From assembly GCA_903839535.1 (NCBI GenBank), contig CAIMCT010000136.1:1-32125 (forward strand): DNA of 32,125 bases, in the 5' to 3' direction. Within the stretch, counting starts at the first letter, position 1, and each line of letters opens with the position of its first letter. A program made the translations under genes and the position numbers. Below the pieces are notes generated by a model. The model was not told where the DNA came from. It did not search any database and saw only the letters and a list, made by a program, of their open reading frames with translations. The stretch comes from an uncultured Desulfobacteraceae bacterium (GTDB lineage: Bacteria; Desulfobacterota; Desulfobacteria; Desulfobacterales; Desulfatirhabdiaceae). This document shows positions 3,536 through 13,552 of the stretch, one piece after another.

Positions 3536-4519
3536 TCAGAACCTGTAATCCATAGTGAACATGATGCTTGTCTGTTCAGACCAGCTTCTGACTCCGTTGT
3601 CAAAAGTAAGGTCAACATCAAATGCTTTGTTTATTAACTGGTGACTGCCTGTTGACTCGATCTTCAGCCAGTCAAACTCTATGCCTGCAGCAAGGTGCGA
3701 GGTGATATCCATCTTCAGTCCAGCCGAGCCGTGCAAAGCATCTCCAGTCGTGTTTTCAAAGGTGTATCTCGTACCTTCTCTAATCAGATGGTGATCCTTG
3801 TTGTCCCCATTCGCATATCCCCAGTCAAATTGACAGTTAAGATAGGTGTTTGGTAGAGCGAATGGCCTGCCAAGTCCAAACTTGCTTCGTATCCCCGCAA
3901 AGTAGTTCCACCATGTTTGATTGAAACGAAGCACATCCCCTGGAAGCAGCTCAATTGGAGTGGAACCATATAGTGTATACTGGATACCGTCATGGACCAT
4001 GAAATCAAGATACTGCCAACGAAAACCAGCAAGAGGCCTGATGTCAAGCCAATCAGGAAGTTCAAGCCAGTCAGAAACTTTTAGGTCGATGTCCCCCTTA
4101 ACCATCCAGCTTCTTTCCTGACGGCAAGAAGATTCTGAATAGATGGTCTTGACTGTCGGATTCTGCTCATCGTCCCAGTCAGAGTCTTTCATTTTGGAGT
4201 CTGCATCCCCTGAAATGTTTGTCAGACCTTCAATGCCGATCGAAAACCTGGGGAAATCCCTGCGCAGTTCTACACCTCCCCACCAAGTGGCAAGGGGAAA
4301 CTCAAGGCGACTAAGAGGAGACTGACCAGGCGGGAACGGGTTGCCAAACTCGTAAGATGTATGGCTCCCCGGATTGAACACAATTTTCGGGGTAACAGAC
4401 CATGGAAGTTGAACCGGCGGAGTGACTGCAGGGTTTTCAGATGCATCGGAATAACCGGCTAAAAGCATACATGCCAATACTGCTGTTAAAAAGAATCTTG
4501 ACGAGGATCGTTCATGCAT
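3536..4519 (-). CDS. Omptin-family outer membrane protease
   Basis: This 327-residue protein has an N-terminal signal peptide (hydrophobic stretch about residues 9-22, likely cleaved near residue 27) and ends in Phe after alternating polar/hydrophobic residues, the signature of a BAM-assembled beta-barrel. Omptin active-site landmarks are visible. KDSDWDDEQNP (D112, D114) corresponds to the DxDW segment holding the OmpT D83/D85 pair, and DNKDHHL (D242, H244) to the DNDEHY segment holding the D210/H212 pair. The spacing between the two (128 residues) is close to the 125 in OmpT. The predicted role is a surface endopeptidase cutting peptides or proteins, specificity unknown. The ATG at 4519 is preceded by repeated GGAAA Shine-Dalgarno copies. 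It is probably monocistronic. Confidence 0.75.
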   Translation of the reverse strand: MHERSSSRFFLTAVLACMLLAGYSDASENPAVTPPVQLPWSVTPKIVFNPGSHTSYEFGNPFPPGQSPLSRLEFPLATWWGGVELRRDFPRFSIGIEGLTNISGDADSKMKDSDWDDEQNPTVKTIYSESSCRQERSWMVKGDIDLKVSDWLELPDWLDIRPLAGFRWQYLDFMVHDGIQYTLYGSTPIELLPGDVLRFNQTWWNYFAGIRSKFGLGRPFALPNTYLNCQFDWGYANGDNKDHHLIREGTRYTFENTTGDALHGSAGLKMDITSHLAAGIEFDWLKIESTGSHQLINKAFDVDLTFDNGVRSWSEQTSIMFTMDYRF

Positions 4520-5294: not shown

Positions 5295-6266
5295 CTAACA
5301 GATACCCGCCTGGCGTTGGATGACCTGATTCGTATTATCCTGCTTTTGAACCAGCTCATTCCATTTTCGATCTACTTTTTTCTGGGTGTAATCAATCATC
5401 TCATCCGTAATCAGTCCGAATCGCCCCTGTGATTTTAAATACCCCTTTACGGAGACTTTTCTTTCAGGAAAGACATTGATGGTGTATTCCCAATCTTCTT
5501 CAAATCGCTGATTATCCTTTGAAAACCGTAATTTGTTAACTTCATAAATGGGAAATACATTGGACTGGGTCGCCATTCGCATAACCTGTATCGAATTGGC
5601 AGGGTCGATACGCCACCCTGGGGGGCAGGCGGACAAAAGGTGAATGAACTTCATGCCGGTAATCTGGCGCGCCTTCCTGAATTTTCGGAACATGTCATCC
5701 GGATAGGCTGCCGAAGCAGTGGCCATATAGGATATGTGATGCGCCAACATGATCTGCTCTATATCTTTTTTGGATTCTTCCTTGATGGACCCGGCAGGAG
5801 TGGTTGTTGTCCATGCACCCATGGGGGTTGCACTGGAGCGTTGAATACCGGTATTCATATAAGCCTCGTTATCATAGCAGACAAATAGAATGTTCTCGTT
5901 GCGTTCCGCAGCTCCGGAAAGAGCCTGCATGCCAATGTCGAAAGTGCCGCCATCCCCTGCCCACGCCATTACCACTACATCCTTTTCCCCCCGGACATCC
6001 AGCGCTGCAGCGGCGCCCGAAGCAACAACAGCGGCGGTTTCAAAGGGACAATGGATAATTGGAACCTTGAGGCTCGAATAAGGATATCCGCCAACAAACA
6101 CAGCGAAACAACATGCAGGAAGCACGACAACCGTTCGTTCCCCCAAGGCTTTCAAAGCTATCTTCATGGATATGGGCGCTGCGCAACCTTGACATGAGGT
6201 CATTCCAGGCTGCATCAATTCCTCTTCAACCAATACTTGCCGGGGAATATCAATCATTTTTTGCAT
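5295..6266 (-). CDS. 2-oxoacid:acceptor oxidoreductase, beta (TPP-binding) subunit
   Basis: This 323-residue protein is the thiamine-diphosphate-binding subunit of a pyruvate/2-oxoacid:ferredoxin oxidoreductase (PorB type). The TPP/Mg motif GDGGTFDIGMQALSGAAERN is followed by CYDNEAYMNTGIQRS, the usual site for TPP binding in PorB. Cysteines at 25 and 28 (CQGC), 52/53 (CC) and in SACPPGW match those ligating the proximal [4Fe-4S] cluster of the family. It catalyses oxidative decarboxylation of a 2-oxoacid to an acyl-CoA together with the alpha subunit, whose gene ends 9 bp upstream. The substrate cannot be read from sequence: pyruvate, a branched-chain or an aryl 2-oxoacid are all possible. 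The stop codon lies within a GTTAGCC core-like string next to the putative cassette. Confidence 0.88.
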   Translation of the reverse strand: MQKMIDIPRQVLVEEELMQPGMTSCQGCAAPISMKIALKALGERTVVVLPACCFAVFVGGYPYSSLKVPIIHCPFETAAVVASGAAAALDVRGEKDVVVMAWAGDGGTFDIGMQALSGAAERNENILFVCYDNEAYMNTGIQRSSATPMGAWTTTTPAGSIKEESKKDIEQIMLAHHISYMATASAAYPDDMFRKFRKARQITGMKFIHLLSACPPGWRIDPANSIQVMRMATQSNVFPIYEVNKLRFSKDNQRFEEDWEYTINVFPERKVSVKGYLKSQGRFGLITDEMIDYTQKKVDRKWNELVQKQDNTNQVIQRQAGIC

Positions 6267-6275
6267 AATAAGCCT

Positions 6276-7430
6276 CTATTGTTTCAAGCCCCAGAACAAG
6301 GGCTCATCGGATGGTTTGTCATGGGTAAGTACATGGTTCAAAATCCCTTCCACATCCTCCGGAGTAACATCGCGCCCGCCCAGACCGGCGATCACGGAAT
6401 AAATCGGGGGCCGATTATCCGAGGCATAGAGAGCGGAGCGGATTTCACTGGCGAACACTCCCCCCAAACCAACGGACATGTTGCGATCAATGACCACTAC
6501 CTTCCTGGCTTTTCCCAGAACATCCCGCCAGCAATCGACGGGAATGGGCCTGAACATGCGCAGCTTCATAATGCCGACTTTTTCGCCCTTGGCCCGTAAT
6601 TTATCAATGGCGATACGGGATACCGAGGTAATAGCGCCTGCAGTAACCAAAATGACTTCCGCATCTTCTGCTTGATAGGTTTCAACCAGATCATAAGCCC
6701 GGCCGAAAACGCCATGAAATTCCCGGCAAACTTCCGGATAGTAGCGCAATGCCTCGTGAGTAGCCTGCTGCAGGGTATAGCGGTGTTCGTAGAAATAATC
6801 GGTGGCGAAAAAGCCTCCGAACATCCTTGGTTCATCGAAATTCAGGCTTACCGGCGGTACATAAGGCGGAATGAACCGATCCACGAGATCAGCATCCGGA
6901 ATATCGACAATTTCTGTTGTGTGGCTCAGGAAAAATGCGTCGTAGGCAATCATAACCGGGAGCATAACCTTCTCCGCCAGTTTGTAGGCCATGATTACAG
7001 CATCCAGAAGTTCCTGGCTGGATTCGCAGTAAATCTGAATCCAGCCAGTGTCCCGCTGCGCAAGGGAATCTGTTTGCTCGGCCCAGATGTTCCATACGCC
7101 GCTGACGGCCCGGTTGACATTGGCCATTACAATGGGTAAACGGGCGCCTGCGGTCCAGTGCAACACCTCGTGCATCAGGAGCAGGCCGTTGCCGCTGGTT
7201 GCCGTAAAGGTGCGAACTCCGGTGGTTGCAGCGCCGATAAGGGCCGCCATTGCCGAGTGCTCGCTTTCAACCTTGATAAAGCTCGCATCCAGATCTTTAC
7301 TTGCGCACATTTCGGATAATTCTTCCACGATCGTCGTCTGCGGGGTGATAGGATAGGCCGATATTACGCCCACCTTACTCAGCTTTACGCCATAAGAAAT
7401 CGCGTGATTTCCTTTGATTGCCTTTTTCAA
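6276..7430 (-). CDS. 2-oxoacid:acceptor oxidoreductase, alpha subunit
   Basis: This 384-residue protein is the alpha (PorA-type) subunit. YPITPQT at residues 26-32 is the conserved pyrimidine-domain motif, followed by the VESEHSAMAALIGAATTGVR segment and the TATSGNGLLLMHE stretch of this family. The C-terminal third (from about residue 255, EVILVTAGAITSVSRIA) is the transketolase-C-like domain. It forms the active site with the beta subunit. Its length is normal for a separate-subunit enzyme. It follows the NAD(P)H/ferredoxin fusion gene by 55 bp and precedes the beta gene by 9 bp, so it is clearly in one operon. Confidence 0.9.
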   Translation of the reverse strand: MKKAIKGNHAISYGVKLSKVGVISAYPITPQTTIVEELSEMCASKDLDASFIKVESEHSAMAALIGAATTGVRTFTATSGNGLLLMHEVLHWTAGARLPIVMANVNRAVSGVWNIWAEQTDSLAQRDTGWIQIYCESSQELLDAVIMAYKLAEKVMLPVMIAYDAFFLSHTTEIVDIPDADLVDRFIPPYVPPVSLNFDEPRMFGGFFATDYFYEHRYTLQQATHEALRYYPEVCREFHGVFGRAYDLVETYQAEDAEVILVTAGAITSVSRIAIDKLRAKGEKVGIMKLRMFRPIPVDCWRDVLGKARKVVVIDRNMSVGLGGVFASEIRSALYASDNRPPIYSVIAGLGGRDVTPEDVEGILNHVLTHDKPSDEPLFWGLKQ

Positions 7431-7460
7431 TTATACCTCCTTCAGTCTTTAGCTATAAAC

Positions 7461-7478
7461 ATGCCGGTATGCCGGCAT
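7461..7478. repeat. ATGCCGGTATGCCGGCAT palindromic repeat
   Basis: A short palindrome-rich string sits between the fusion gene and the alpha-subunit gene. A longer relative, with the 8-bp unit TATGCCAG in tandem, occurs at 15294-15327, so this is a dispersed repeat family rather than an operon-specific site. Confidence 0.5.
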
Positions 7479-7485
7479 TCCGCCT

Positions 7486-9306
7486 TTAGCCTTCAGCGAC
7501 CATGGTAATGGCATGACGCGGACATTCCGTAAGACAGATGCCGCATCCTTTGCAATAGTCATAATCAATGGCGTATCCGAATGTTTCACGGGTTTGATCC
7601 AGAATCGACACATCTGGGCAGAAAATCAAGCAGTTATCACATTCCGTACAACGACCGCAGTGCATACATCGCTCTGTTTCATGAAGTGCTTCTTCCACGG
7701 AAAGAGTAGCGTGATAGGGTTCAAAAGAATCCTTACGCAGATCGGCTGGTTGAATGGTTTTTTCGCATCCCGGCATTTTGATGAAATAATCATAAACGAT
7801 TTTTGTTGAATCCACCACTTTCTGATCATTCTGTAGTACGGGATTCACCGGAGCCCAATTCATATATCTGGAAAAACTGAGAGCATCGCCACTGCCGATG
7901 CGAATCTGATTCAGAACATCAGAAAATGCAACACCTCTTCGGTCACAGTCCATGGCGATGGCGGCTTTTTTGCCGGAAGCAACGGCATGGACAACAGTAT
8001 GCGGGATGTCTATCATGTCGCCGCCCGCAAACACCTTCTCTCCATCGGTATGATCTGATAGAATTGATAAATCATCCCCGGTGCGAATGATGGTATCGCT
8101 TGAACGGACGCGCCTGCCAAGATAATCAAAATCCGGATTTTCCCCGATGGCGACCAGGATGGTGTCTACTGGTACGTCAAACGTCACGCCCTCCTTGCGG
8201 ATGGGCCGGCAGCGCCCGCTCTCGTCAGTTGGGCCCAGTTCCATTTCACAGCATACGAGATTTTCAATCGTAGTGTCCGCATTAAGCGTAATATCTTCGG
8301 GGGCCGCCAGAAAACGAAAAATGACGCCTTCTTCCTGGGCTTCCCGGACTTCCTCCGGATGAGCCGGCATTTCTGTTAACGATCTTCGGTAAATAACCGT
8401 GACATGGCATCCCATGCGAATGGCTGTTCGCGCTGCATCAATTGCGGTATTGCCACCGCCGATCACCGCCACCCGCTTGCCCAGCGCAACGGTTTCGCCC
8501 CTGGCTACCTGCTTCAGAATGTTCATGGCGCTCATGATTTGACAGCAGGAGAGGTTTGCCGTCAGTTCCATCTGAACGCTTCTATGCGCTCCGGTGGCCA
8601 AAAACACATAGTCGAATGTTTGAGTAAGGGTTTCCAGTGGGATATCTTTTCCGATTTCCGTATTCGGCCGCAGCTCAACGCCCATAAGGGATAGCCCCTC
8701 AAATTCAGATGCAACGACCTGTCTGGGAAGGCGATAGTTAGGGATACCCAGCCGTAGAATACCGCCCAGCAAGGCTTCTTTGTCAAAAATCGTCACCCTG
8801 AATCCGAGCAGTCTGGCGAAATAAGCCACAGACATGCCGGATGGACCCGATCCGACAACAGCCAGACTCCTTATTTTGTCAGACTGGCCATTGTTATCGG
8901 GCAGCTCCGGATGGGGGGTTGCGGGAGCGAATTGATCTCCGACAAACCGCTCCAGTTCCTTGATCTGGATACAATCATCCAGTACCGTCCTGTTACAGGC
9001 ATCCTCACAGAATTTAAAACAAACCCGGCCCAGGATCGCCGGAAAAGGTTCTTCCCGCTTGAGATGCCAATAGGCTTTTTCATATTCCTTGTTATTGAGC
9101 AGTTTCACCCAGCCTTCAATATCATTACCCGCCGGACAGGCGTTCTGGCATGCCGGAATCTTGTCTTCATAGATTGGCTTGATAAAACGCCAACCGCCGG
9201 TTTTATTGTGAAGCATGTTTCCCAGGGAAACATGCATCGGGGTGATGTCGCGATACGATTTGAACTTGTGTTTTATCGCCATTTCACTGCGTTTTTTCGC
9301 CGCCAT
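7486..9306 (-). CDS. GltD-like NAD(P)H/FAD oxidoreductase fused to a C-terminal PorD-type ferredoxin
   Basis: This 606-residue flavoprotein is the electron-transfer arm of the 2-oxoacid oxidoreductase. Residues ~50-115 form the GltD-like N-terminal cluster-binding region (CQNACPAG, CFKFCEDAC). A FAD Rossmann motif (VVGSGPSGMS, ~150-159) and an NAD(P)H Rossmann motif (VIGGGNTAIDAA, ~280-290) follow, then FAGGDMIDIPHTVVHAV of the second FAD motif. The last ~65 residues carry CMHCGRCTECDNCLIFCP and CKGCGICLTECP, a two-cluster domain equivalent to a PorD delta subunit. It probably links 2-oxoacid oxidation to NAD(P), as phenylglyoxylate dehydrogenase does in aromatic degraders. The ATG at 9306 has AGGAAAGGAAGAG upstream. 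It lies between the gamma and alpha genes. Confidence 0.88.
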   Translation of the reverse strand: MAAKKRSEMAIKHKFKSYRDITPMHVSLGNMLHNKTGGWRFIKPIYEDKIPACQNACPAGNDIEGWVKLLNNKEYEKAYWHLKREEPFPAILGRVCFKFCEDACNRTVLDDCIQIKELERFVGDQFAPATPHPELPDNNGQSDKIRSLAVVGSGPSGMSVAYFARLLGFRVTIFDKEALLGGILRLGIPNYRLPRQVVASEFEGLSLMGVELRPNTEIGKDIPLETLTQTFDYVFLATGAHRSVQMELTANLSCCQIMSAMNILKQVARGETVALGKRVAVIGGGNTAIDAARTAIRMGCHVTVIYRRSLTEMPAHPEEVREAQEEGVIFRFLAAPEDITLNADTTIENLVCCEMELGPTDESGRCRPIRKEGVTFDVPVDTILVAIGENPDFDYLGRRVRSSDTIIRTGDDLSILSDHTDGEKVFAGGDMIDIPHTVVHAVASGKKAAIAMDCDRRGVAFSDVLNQIRIGSGDALSFSRYMNWAPVNPVLQNDQKVVDSTKIVYDYFIKMPGCEKTIQPADLRKDSFEPYHATLSVEEALHETERCMHCGRCTECDNCLIFCPDVSILDQTRETFGYAIDYDYCKGCGICLTECPRHAITMVAEG

Positions 9307-9370
9307 AAATTCTCTTCCTTTCCTCTGGCTGATCCCTACAAAACAGATGTCTCTTTTTTCCGGAAACCCG

Positions 9371-9928
9371 TCAAACTTTCACCACCTGATTATATGCTGC
9401 TTGCGCCGCCTGCTGGTTCTGCGCTTTTTTTACCGGTACATAAGCTTCAATGGCCTGTAGAATGGCATTGATTCCGACCAGACCTGTGGCTTTCGAAAAA
9501 GCGCCTAAAATAGCTGTGTTTACAATTGGGTTGGCCGCGGAACCGAGACGATGCGAAACGGCGATAGCAGCCGCATCAATCACGAAAAGCCGATAATCAT
9601 CGCCAAAAAAATCCTTATAAAATTCCGGTGTACGGGATGAGTTGATCACAATGCTGCCGTTTTTTTTCAACCCCTCTATCACATTCACATTATCAAGCAT
9701 GGAAGCATCCAGCACCACCACATGATCCGGGTGGTAAATTTGACTTCGCAGATTGATATGCTGATTGTCAATCCGGCAGAAAGCCGTGACCGGCGCTCCC
9801 CTGCGCTCCACACCAAAAGCTGGAAATGCCTGAACAAATTTGCCCTCGATAAAAAAGGCCTGTGCAAGAACCTCTGACCCTATAACAGACCCTTGACCGC
9901 CTCTTCCGTGGAATCGAATCTCCTGCAT
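9371..9928 (-). CDS. 2-oxoacid:acceptor oxidoreductase, gamma subunit
   Basis: This 185-residue protein is a PorC/PorG-type gamma subunit: RFHGRGGQGSVIGSEVLAQA at the N-terminus, AFGVERRGAPVTAFCRI, and VVVLDASMLDNV are characteristic of the family, which contributes to CoA handling. The start is placed at the ATG at 9928, five bases after a GGAGG. A longer frame with a start at 9961 exists but would put that Shine-Dalgarno inside the coding region and add 11 residues not expected before RFHGRGGQG. It is the first oxidoreductase gene, 33 bp after the putative end of the selenoprotein reading frame. Confidence 0.88.
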   Translation of the reverse strand: MQEIRFHGRGGQGSVIGSEVLAQAFFIEGKFVQAFPAFGVERRGAPVTAFCRIDNQHINLRSQIYHPDHVVVLDASMLDNVNVIEGLKKNGSIVINSSRTPEFYKDFFGDDYRLFVIDAAAIAVSHRLGSAANPIVNTAILGAFSKATGLVGINAILQAIEAYVPVKKAQNQQAAQAAYNQVVKV

Positions 9929-9947
9929 GCAATCCTCCATGATATAT

Positions 9948-9989
9948 TGACCGTTCACCATTCACCGTTTGTCGTCAACGGTCAACGGC
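9948..9989. repeat. GTTCACC/CAACGGTCAACGG dispersed repeat
   Basis: The string with TTGACCGTTCACCATTCACC followed by CGTCAACGGTCAACGG belongs to a family also seen at 22140-22169 and, as the palindrome CCGTTGACGGTCAACGG, within hrpA at 18789-18805. Here it provides the last codons of the selenocysteine read-through extension of ArsS. Confidence 0.55.
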
Positions 9990-11014
9990 TTTGTTAATTG
10001 GGCTCCCTGACAGGGAGTCAGTTCTCCCTGTCATGATGATCCTGCGCTGGCAGTACAGGCAAAACAATGATTCATAATCATGATTTCCCGGCTCGCCAGT
10101 TTATCGAAATCAAAATCACGAATATGCCTGGGGGAGTCGCTGTTTACCGATAGACCCAGCATCTGGTTAAAATCACAATCAAAAAGACTTCCGTTCCATC
10201 CCACAGACAACGTGGTCCGGCACATCACATTTTGCACTGCATCAGGATTGAAGGATTGTCTCAGCTTACACATATAATTATCAAAATTGTCGCTGTTAAC
10301 CAGATAATCCAGATAGCGACCCACCGGACAGTTCGTCAGACAATATAAGCGGTTGAACTCGATCCCGTACTCTTCCCGAAGACGAAGCCGGTACTCGTTT
10401 TCCAGAGATGCCTGGCTCGCAGGCAGACAGGCGTCAGGTGGGTTGTGAGCAAGGTTTAGTATCAGCCCGCTTCCTTGCATTCCATACCCTCTTTGATTCA
10501 GATCACGGATGGATGCAATGGTCTGCAGAAATGTGTTCTTCCCGCGCTGAAGCTCGGCGCGATCCAGTTGATAGTCTGGCATGGAACCTATGACTTCAAT
10601 GCCCAATCGAGCATAGAGATCAAGATAAAAAGAATATTTCAAATCCTGGAGAATGACAAGGTTGCTTCTGACAATGACCCGGCGGCCGATCCGGGTTGCC
10701 TGTTCCAGAAGCCACGGAAGATCCGGGTGAAGCTCCGGGGCGCCGCCGGTGATGTCCAAGGTCGGAATATGGTGCACATCGGCTGCCAGAAGACACAGCT
10801 CAAGGGTTTCTCTGTCCATTCTCTCTTTTCTGTCCGGACCGGCCTTCACATGACAATGGCTGCAACTGAGATTGCATTGCCGGGTAATATTGATCTGAAG
10901 AATTTTAATCCCGTCCGCGCGCAAGGAACAAAGCCCCGATTCCCGGACAATGGACGAAAAGGATTCTTTGCTGCGTTTACCTGATAAGAGCGCCATCTGT
11001 CTCGACATCGGCAT
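9962..11014 (-). CDS. arsS: ArsS-family radical SAM protein, probable selenoprotein (in-frame TGA)
   Basis: This radical SAM enzyme has CNLSCSHC (Cys 47, 51, 54) binding the [4Fe-4S]-SAM cluster, a DITGGAPELHP segment, and a Cys-rich C-terminal half (YCLTNCPVGRYLDY, MCRTTLSVGWNGSLFDCDFN, HCFACTASAGSS). These match the arsenosugar-biosynthesis radical SAM (seleno)protein ArsS family, which acts on methylated arsenicals. The frame reaches TGA at 10031-10033 directly after the SS of CTASAGSS. In this family a Cys or selenocysteine follows that motif, so I read the TGA as Sec (residue 328), with 22 more codons to a second TGA at 9962-9964. The start is the ATG at 11014 (AGGA 5 nt upstream) rather than the GTG at 11017. 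If the TGA is a true stop, the product is 327 residues and lacks the motif's last residue. It is first gene of the oxidoreductase operon; no ArsM partner is in view. Confidence 0.8.
10003..10033 (-). promoter_or_regulatory. Candidate bacterial SECIS hairpin after the arsS TGA
   Basis: On the coding strand, TGA (10033-10031) is followed 19 nt later by the loop of a 6-bp hairpin, CUCCCU-GUC-AGGGAG (10017-10003). G and U are the first loop bases, and the UGA-to-loop distance lies within the 16-37 nt range usually given for bSECIS elements. An alternative, stronger-looking 10-bp perfect hairpin, TGACAGGGAG-AACTGA-CTCCCTGTCA (10033-10008), would bury the TGA in its stem and excludes the first. There is no U-run after either, so they do not look like a rho-independent terminator. 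Confidence 0.55.
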
Positions 11015-11205
11015 CACATTCCTTTTTTTCTGATGATTTTACAGATTTGGAATCAGTTTATACAACCATTGATGTTATATTTACAATCAATTATGCTTGA
11101 AATTCAAATCTTTTTTGATTACAACAAAATTCAGAAACGATATGTAATAATTATATATTTTGATTACCACGACTTATTGGGAAGTTACAGGCAAAGTTAT
11201 CTAAC

Positions 11206-11901
11206 ATGCTTAAAACACTTGAAGATGTTCGTCAAAGACTCATTAACGGTTACGATCCGTACAGTATTATTCTTTTCGGTTCGTACGGCGCTCAACATGC
11301 ACGGGAACACAGCGACATCGATCTTCTTATCGTAAAAGATTCCTTGAAGAACCATCTCGAACGGCACATGGAAATAGAGAAACTTCTTGCAGACAGAAGC
11401 GTTTCAATCGACATAAAAGTATTTACCCGGCATGAGGTTCGGCATCTTTATTCATCTGGAAGCCCTTTTATGGAAGAAGTCATGGAAACAGGGAGGCTTA
11501 TTTACATGCGAAAAGCAACAGAAGTGTGGATGAACGATGCAAAGGAAGAGAGAGAAACGGCAACAATCCTGCTTGACCATGGAAAATTCAAAGGAGCCTG
11601 TTATCACGCCCAGCAGTGTGTGGAAAAATGTCTGAAGGCGCTCATTCTTGAAAAAGGTAAGAAACCGGAAAAATCGCATGATATTATAAAGCTTCTGAAT
11701 GATGTCAGTTTATCAGGGTATGACATTTCTTTTTCCGTGGACGATGCGGTCTTTATGAACAGCATTTACCGGGGACGATATCCTGCTGATGAAGGGCTTC
11801 TGCCACATGGTGAACCATCAGGGGATGAATCCGGAAGAGCGGTAAGGATAGCAGAAAGTATCTTTGAAATTCTCAGGAAACATCTTGGGGAAAAAGAATG
11901 A
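11206..11901 (+). CDS. MNT-type nucleotidyltransferase fused to a HEPN domain
   Basis: This 231-residue protein has two domains. Residues ~5-95 form a minimal nucleotidyltransferase: GSYGAQ at 25-30, then SDIDLL with D37 and D39, and a third acidic position near D69. Residues ~103-228 form a HEPN domain (ACYHAQQCVEKCLKALILEK, then KSHDIIKLL, and the YRGRYP segment near the end). Stand-alone pairs of these domains (MntA/HepT) act as toxin-antitoxin modules in which the NTase AMPylates the HEPN RNase. In this fused form the HEPN part shows no clear R-x4-6-H catalytic motif, so RNase activity is doubtful. It is a single gene, divergent from arsS, with a 191-bp AT-rich spacer (11015-11205) that must hold both promoters. 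The Shine-Dalgarno is weak. Confidence 0.8.
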   Translation: MLKTLEDVRQRLINGYDPYSIILFGSYGAQHAREHSDIDLLIVKDSLKNHLERHMEIEKLLADRSVSIDIKVFTRHEVRHLYSSGSPFMEEVMETGRLIYMRKATEVWMNDAKEERETATILLDHGKFKGACYHAQQCVEKCLKALILEKGKKPEKSHDIIKLLNDVSLSGYDISFSVDDAVFMNSIYRGRYPADEGLLPHGEPSGDESGRAVRIAESIFEILRKHLGEKE

Positions 11902-12039: not shown

Positions 12040-12208
12040 CCAACACCGTTTTATCGGCATTCGTTCGCAAAGTTTTGAATATTGGAATTGAGGTCATCAT
12101 CGGACGGCAAAGCTCCGGTTCTCCATGCCTTTATTTGCCATTGACTCTCAGAGCGCCATATTCTATGGTACCTCAATACCGTCTTTAATGACCAAACAAG
12201 GAGGTCTT

Positions 12209-13552
12209 ATGAAAAAATATTTTATCGCCCTTCTGATAGTTGCGTTAGGGATAGCCCCCGCCTGGGCCACGGAAATCCCTAAAAAAAAGCCAGTCGCGCC
12301 CACCAAAGCCTCGGTGCAGGCTTCCTCAAAAAAACCGGCTGCTTCGGCCAAAGCCTCGACTCAAGCCACCAAAAAAAAACCGGCTGCTCCGGCCAAAGCC
12401 TCGGCTCAAGCCACCAAAAAAAAACCGGTTGCTCCGACAAAAGTCGCCAAGCAACCCGCACCCCTCAAAAATGTCCCCGCACAAAAACCAGCACCAGAAC
12501 CACCGGTACTCTACAAGGCGTTTATTGTTGTGGAAGCGCAAACCGGTAAAATGCTGGAGGGCGAAAATGTTCACCTGTCCCTGCCCCCGGCCAGTATCAC
12601 CAAGCTGATGCTGGCAGCCATCGTGATGGACAGATTGGAAAGCGGCCAGATCAAGCTTGGTGACAAGGTAACCGTATCCCAAGAGGCGGCCAGAATGGGC
12701 GGCAGCCAGGTTTTTCTTAAGCCAGGCGAGGTATTTCCCCTGGAAGAGATGATGAGGGCTGTCATGGTGGCATCGGCCAACGATGCGGCTTTTGCCGTGG
12801 CCGAATTCGTTGCCGGCAGCCGGGAGAATTTCGTCGATCTGATGAACGAAAAGGCCAAATCGCTCAACATGGCCGATTCCCGATTTCACTCCATGCACGG
12901 ACTGCCCCCTGCCAAGGGTCAGGAACCGGATATGACATCATGCGCGGATCTTTCCATTCTGGCTGGAAATCTGCTCACCCATCCCGGAATCCTGGAATGG
13001 ACATCCCTGAAAACCGCTCCATTTAGGGACGGTACCCTGATCATGCGGAACCACAACCAACTGATGAACCGTTTTTCCGGCATGGACGGCCTTAAGACTG
13101 GCTTTTATCGTGAGGCCGGCTACAGTATCGCCGCCACTGCCAAGATAAACAACCTTCGCCTCATTGCCGTGGTCATGGGCAGTTCCACAGCCAAAACCAG
13201 AGATAGCTTCGCCGAAAATAAGCTAAAAACGTATTTTTCACAGTATGAAATGATGACTCTCGTCAAAAAAGGTGATCCCGTGGACAAAGACGTAGCCCTT
13301 CCGGATGGCAAGCAAAAAAGCCTCAAGCCGGTGGCTGCTACCGATTTTTTCTATCCAGTTCCCCGCGATAAGAAAAAACAGATTACCAGAAATATCGACC
13401 TTCCCGATCAGGTTAGAGGAGAGATCAAAGAAGGTCAACGTCTCGGCGAAATGGTTATCCAATTCGACAAGGACATTGTGGGCAAGGTGGATCTGATCTC
13501 ACCGGTTTACATACCCAAAGCCGGATTTTTTTCAAGATTTTTCAATAATTAA
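12209..13552 (+). CDS. D-alanyl-D-alanine carboxypeptidase (PBP5/6-type, peptidase S11)
   Basis: This 447-residue periplasmic penicillin-binding protein trims the terminal D-Ala from peptidoglycan pentapeptides. The three active-site motifs are present: SITK (S129, K132), SAN (189-191) and KTG (296-298). A PBP5 C-terminal beta domain follows (about 365-430), then a short GFFSRFFNN tail that could be amphipathic and membrane-binding. The start is the ATG at 12209 (AAGGAGG 6 nt upstream), giving a standard signal peptide cleaved at about AWA-TE (residue 20). A 12125 start would place 28 unlikely residues before the signal. Between signal and catalytic domain lies an unusual Lys/Ala/Pro linker (residues ~25-97) with a 15-residue repeat. 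Confidence 0.92.
   Translation: MKKYFIALLIVALGIAPAWATEIPKKKPVAPTKASVQASSKKPAASAKASTQATKKKPAAPAKASAQATKKKPVAPTKVAKQPAPLKNVPAQKPAPEPPVLYKAFIVVEAQTGKMLEGENVHLSLPPASITKLMLAAIVMDRLESGQIKLGDKVTVSQEAARMGGSQVFLKPGEVFPLEEMMRAVMVASANDAAFAVAEFVAGSRENFVDLMNEKAKSLNMADSRFHSMHGLPPAKGQEPDMTSCADLSILAGNLLTHPGILEWTSLKTAPFRDGTLIMRNHNQLMNRFSGMDGLKTGFYREAGYSIAATAKINNLRLIAVVMGSSTAKTRDSFAENKLKTYFSQYEMMTLVKKGDPVDKDVALPDGKQKSLKPVAATDFFYPVPRDKKKQITRNIDLPDQVRGEIKEGQRLGEMVIQFDKDIVGKVDLISPVYIPKAGFFSRFFNN
12284..12448 (+). repeat. 45-bp tandem repeats with poly-A tracts in the carboxypeptidase linker
   Basis: The linker is about three copies of a 15-residue unit of the form KASxQAxKKKPAAPA (KAS at residues 33, 48 and 63). 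Each KKKP block is encoded by a run of A: A8 near 12281, A7 near 12330, and A9 near 12371 and 12416. Such runs are slippage-prone and lie before the catalytic domain. Confidence 0.75.

Follow-up and report, generated by a model that had tools for sequence, protein, structure and literature searches.

Does the arsS gene of this uncultured Desulfobacteraceae bacterium end at the TGA that closes its annotated reading frame, or is that TGA read as selenocysteine (Sec), so that the protein runs on? The gene lies in a window of 32,125 nucleotides, by which we mean the whole stretch of DNA that was analysed (contig CAIMCT010000136.1 of GenBank assembly GCA_903839535.1). A preliminary description of the window, made from its letters alone, had proposed that arsS probably encodes a selenoprotein, with a frame that reaches the TGA and then stays open for 22 more codons. 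Both parts of that frame are present in the minus-strand sequence (Table 1). From its GTG, or from an alternative ATG start at 11014, the frame runs to ...HCFACTASAGSS immediately before the TGA at 10033-10031, and an ORF caller terminates the protein there at 328 aa. As anticipated for automatic annotation, plain ORF calling drops the predicted Sec together with the predicted last 22 residues of ArsS.

Table 1. Features of the arsS locus (coordinates of the window; codons and arms are read on the minus strand).
Feature	Position	Strand	Basis or detail
arsS through the predicted recoded TGA	10031..11017	minus	328 sense codons from GTG 11017; TIGR04167, DUF3641, Radical_SAM
In-frame TGA, predicted Sec (U329 of P0001)	10031..10033	minus	Cys/Sec column in relatives
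Predicted arsS extension QGELTPCQGAQLTKPLTVDDKR, 22 codons at 10030-9965, with terminal TGA 9964-9962	9962..10030	minus	
SECIS-like hairpin CUCCCU-GUC-AGGGAG, loop 10011-10009	10003..10017	minus	folding
Competing perfect 10-bp hairpin TGACAGGGAG/CTCCCTGTCA, pairs the TGA	10008..10033	minus	-17.2 kcal/mol fold
TGTCAGGGAG, in-frame near-copy (9/10) of the ten bases from the TGA, 21 nt downstream; encodes C-Q-G-A	10003..10012	minus	

The identity of the gene is clear from its family. The translated protein (P0001) scores 390.2 bits against the NCBIfam model TIGR04167 (rSAM_SeCys; curated cut-off 300), whose full name is 'arsenosugar biosynthesis radical SAM (seleno)protein ArsS', aligning to model positions 2-303 of 303, and it is the sole match above this cut-off in the genome. 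It comprises a Radical_SAM domain (PF04055), in which the CxxxCxxC motif reads CNLSCSHC, and a DUF3641 domain (PF12345). In a search of PDB sequences the four matches to ArsS were weak (31 bits at best) and all to other radical SAM proteins, so the protein has no close solved relative. In the portion of PMC12159101 available to us the chemistry of ArsS is given as adenosylation of arsenic (citing Cheng et al. 2021), and by analogy with the family the window ArsS may likewise perform arsenosugar-type adenosylation. An arsM gene that scores above its own family cut-off is present in the same genome.

Firstly, the TGA stands exactly where relatives of ArsS carry Cys or Sec, as the preliminary description had stated. 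In a phylum sample of 395 genomes, 121 contain an ArsS match at E <= 1e-60, and the corresponding table holds 125 ArsS rows (four genomes with two). A single in-frame TGA is flagged in 40 of these rows, the window's own among them. All 39 of the other flagged rows have this TGA in the column of the C-terminal Cys; a pattern search placed 38 of them, and a looser inspection placed L079. From the TGA rows of an additional search, the window, G105 (= L074) and six others (L120, L133 and L142-L145) were read. In all, 114 rows are placed, 45 of them with TGA and 69 with TGC or TGT in this column; the Cys rows number 67 when two duplicates are removed. Seven rows were unplaced by pattern and stand outside these 45 Sec and 69 Cys rows (L048, L079, L096, L101, L115, L116 and L141). 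On closer inspection L048, L096 and L101 are Cys and L079 is Sec-like with a TGA, while in L141 the contig ends directly after GSS and L116 (G005) shows a GFT-TGA-GG context but lacks the HCxxCTAG stretch before the TGA. Among the close relatives, all of them Cys, none ends at SS without a Cys or Sec. The distant row L115 (G319) is ambiguous: its Cys column holds a TGA preceded by GSH, an odd context, and this codon may encode Sec or truly end the protein, making L115 the one row that possibly lacks a Cys or Sec residue. A scan of the named genome contigs yielded one further ArsS relative, which is 45% identical and Cys.

Two of the rows differ in another respect. L096 (G289) and L114 (G128) form a divergent ArsS-like pair ending in TALxGTGCFGxLT, as against TAGxGSSC, and G289 carries an in-frame TAG somewhere within its ArsS match.

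Secondly, the source genome, which is 99.46% complete, encodes the machinery for Sec that the preliminary description had suggested looking for. It contains selA (600 bits), selB (371 bits), tRNA-Sec (selC; 77 bits, gathering score 47) and two selD genes (L052 and L053). Each selD gene has a single in-frame TGA (contexts GAGUASK and TCGUAAK), so that both apparently encode selenoproteins themselves, and the selD at L052 gives a predicted hairpin whose 3-nt loop has G as its first base. The selB gene occurs in all 7 of the other genomes of the host's family examined, and the same-genus relative that carries arsS also has a tRNA-Sec. A second arsenite-methyltransferase (arsM)-like gene, below the family cut-off, was seen elsewhere in the genome (L155, G000:C428:29019-29705). 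Within its frame a TGA lies in the context FQ-U-EGG (UxxG), and downstream of this TGA a hairpin is predicted whose 3-nt loop begins with G; the UxxG context is the one given for ArsM selenoproteins in the accessible part of PMC13188914.

Thirdly, the RNA downstream of the TGA can fold into a SECIS-like hairpin with a 3-nt GUC loop on a 6 bp stem. The hairpin with loop GUC that had been noted 19 nt after the TGA is indeed found at 10017-10003, its loop starting at that distance and thus within the 16-37 nt expected. In those sections of PMC13188914 that we could consult, a bacterial SECIS is defined by a loop of 3-9 nt, an upper stem of 4-16 bp, a spacing of 16-37 nt, a G within the first two loop positions and an energy <= -7.5 kcal/mol. 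The window hairpin agrees with this partly consulted definition in loop, stem, loop G and UGA spacing, while in energy it is borderline, at -7.3 kcal/mol for the isolated hairpin and -8.4 kcal/mol when nt 9-45 past the UGA are folded (limit -7.5). For loops that begin 18-23 nt past the codon, a range picked after inspecting the Sec loop positions, a hairpin of <= -7.3 kcal/mol is present in 30 of 45 Sec genes vs 1 of 67 Cys genes (41/45 vs 6/67 at <= -4) and in 48 of 5000 dinucleotide shuffles. The window has 1330 TGA trinucleotides, counting both strands, and 22 of them, including the target, are followed by such a hairpin. When the loop is allowed anywhere from 16 to 37 nt, the same energy is reached in 155/5000 shuffles and in 3/67 Cys relatives. 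None of 4227 Rfam families matched at the TGA site, the one weak hit (E 2.9) lying away from it on the opposite strand, and three loci with other Sec genes gave no match either; the SECIS call is therefore based on the predicted fold and on the published model. The combination of this hairpin with the exact Cys column and the Sec machinery is well beyond chance. Family, column, machinery genes and hairpin together support the original proposal, and the window gene very probably encodes a radical-SAM (DUF3641) enzyme, ArsS, in which a TGA-encoded Sec takes the place of the C-terminal Cys.

A point against recoding is that the UGA also lies in a second, stronger hairpin (-17.2 kcal/mol; Table 1), which the preliminary description does not mention. 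Some of its bases belong to the SECIS-like hairpin as well, and only one of these competing structures can form at a time. The GUC hairpin is predicted when the first 4 to 14 nt past the UGA are kept from folding and is absent from the predicted fold when 0 to 3 or 15 nt are withheld. Such burial is not unique to the window, since 9 of the 45 Sec genes, the window included, are predicted to have every base of the UGA paired when it is folded with the next 44 nt. In the mechanism that we propose, a ribosome arriving at the UGA would melt the first (competing) hairpin, and the released CUCCCU would pair with AGGGAG to give a bacterial SECIS with its GUC loop. SelB, presumably bound there, and the Sec-tRNA would then decode the UGA, and translation would proceed for another 22 codons.

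The closest ArsS relative found (L138/L151 in G572) belongs to the same genus and has Cys at this position. It is 82% identical to the window protein and shares with it an upstream D-Ala-D-Ala carboxypeptidase gene (12125-13552 in the window). Unlike the window gene, it has TGC for the TGA, ends after CQGELTPA and is followed by other DNA and other downstream genes. L138 reads TGC CAG GGG GAG CTG ACC CCC GCA TAG at the Sec site and the window TGA CAG GGA GAA CTG ACT CCC TGT CAG GGA GCC. The blastn match between the two stops at window position 10013, 18 nt past the TGA, and the TAG of L138 sits two codons beyond this point of divergence. The window gene thus lacks the stop of its sister, and DNA that L138 does not share supplies the right arm of the SECIS-like hairpin. 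Among eight genomes of the host's family, five are without an ArsS match at the threshold used, and that of G254 is Cys at 55% identity.

An ArsS tree, computed by a quick method from 112 of the 114 rows (duplicates L129 and L132 left out) after removal of the trait column, pairs the window with L138 (100*) inside a 17-row clade (100*). The other 16 rows of this clade are all Cys, so that no relative there confirms the TGA, which is carried by one assembly only and is not conserved within the clade. A separate 45-row clade contains 41 Sec and 4 Cys rows, and three GSTU rows fall at a third place; at least 3 changes of the Sec/Cys label are forced by starred branches and 5 by parsimony. Descent of the window gene from the main Sec clade is unsupported, its nesting in the Cys clade being at 100*. 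As read from these sequences, the simplest account is that Cys gave way to Sec recently and independently, within the genus and along the branch that leads to the window, and the best reading is that this switch came with the loss of the old stop and the gain of the hairpin. Switches of this kind have precedents: among families in which selenoproteins are rare and Cys homologues widespread, most have selenoproteins that derive from Cys ancestors, according to the part of PMC1794560 at hand. The same-genus pair of TGC and TGA orthologues beside the same upstream gene would offer a close before-and-after view of the birth of a Sec codon and its SECIS, a step often deduced from more distant homologues.

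The 22-residue tail contains an in-frame near-copy of the ten bases that begin with the TGA (Table 1). Repeats of this quality (in register, 9 of 10 bases, within 12-57 nt) occur at 344 of 64090 window positions, and the tail may have arisen by tandem duplication. A fuller scenario, which we offer tentatively and regard as rather unlikely when taken as a whole, is that of a newborn selenoprotein: within the genus the Cys codon would have become TGA, and the TGTCAGGGAG copy (CQGA), arising beside its complement CTCCC at the break in synteny, would at one stroke have made the SECIS and removed the stop. If this scenario is true, the protein would hold a Sec...Cys pair with six intervening residues, and its UGA would lie in a hairpin opened only by the translating ribosome.

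The foremost alternative to a selenoprotein is that a simple nonsense mutation turned the Cys codon into the TGA. ArsS would then lack its last Cys and end at SS, and the hairpin would be there by chance. The all-Cys state of the nearest relatives is consistent with such a loss, and a hairpin this good with its loop at 18-23 nt arises by chance at about 1-2% of sites. The window branch is also longer than that of the sister L138 (0.17 vs 0.036). Depending on the outgroup, 17-20 ArsS changes are window-derived vs 4-8 sister-derived (30 vs 9 with nine outgroups pooled). In addition, two near-invariant glycines are altered (G197D and G326S), a number of changes that three others share and none exceeds in the 110 sequences compared (the tree rows minus L114 and L100). 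Against this, 46 of the 48 near-invariant positions are retained and dN/dS relative to L138 is low (about 0.22-0.24, from dN of 0.10 and dS of 0.42-0.45). Moreover, SelB from the same two genomes shows the same asymmetry (15 window vs 5 sister changes), so the faster branch is not specific to ArsS, and ArsS-specific decay was rejected as its cause. The glycine changes and the branch asymmetry thus favour decay weakly and are outweighed by the remaining evidence. A chance mutation would moreover have had to strike the exact Sec/Cys column, in a genome with the Sec machinery and ahead of a matching hairpin, and we consider this explanation improbable. Still less probable is a sequencing or assembly error that turned TGT or TGC into TGA, the true protein having Cys and the same 22-residue tail: the sequence comes from one assembly of 580 contigs and the sister has TGC, but such an error leaves a SECIS-like hairpin at the right place unexplained.

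Several other genes of the window were noted. Directly downstream of arsS on the minus strand (5295-9961) lies a 2-oxoacid:ferredoxin oxidoreductase gene cluster, made up of gamma, a pyridine-nucleotide oxidoreductase with ferredoxin domains, alpha and beta. The product of a gene at 3536-4519, also on the minus strand, resembles outer membrane proteases of the Omptin family (Pfam PF01278, 37.8 bits). On the plus strand at 11206-11901, divergent from arsS, nucleotidyltransferase and HEPN domains are fused in one protein; in toxin-antitoxin systems the two are often separate genes.

Finally, the window ArsS can be set against the selenoproteins already described. In the parts of PMC13188914 and PMC9312934 available to us, the TIGR04167 radical SAM protein is listed as a predicted selenoprotein with AAR34688.1 as its example, and the former source has a table row 'Radical SAM domain protein TIGR04167 GxxU', citing Zhang and Gladyshev 2005. 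A Sec-bearing ArsS is thus a known kind. In the partly accessible literature on ArsS and selenoproteins, no description was found of Sec in the GSSCQG clade. What is new is the TGC/TGA contrast with a same-genus relative and the position of the window's predicted Sec gene inside an otherwise Cys clade. The window ArsS is like the TIGR04167/rSAM_SeCys selenoprotein in matching the same model, in the C-terminal GxxU position and in having a TGA with a SECIS-like hairpin. It differs from the main Sec clade, whose context is typically GFT-U-GG, in its grouping with Cys proteins and in its own context, GSS-U-QGEL. Its predicted tail of 22 residues is the longest among the Sec tails compared, the next being 20 (L093), and holds a Cys separated from the Sec by six intervening residues.
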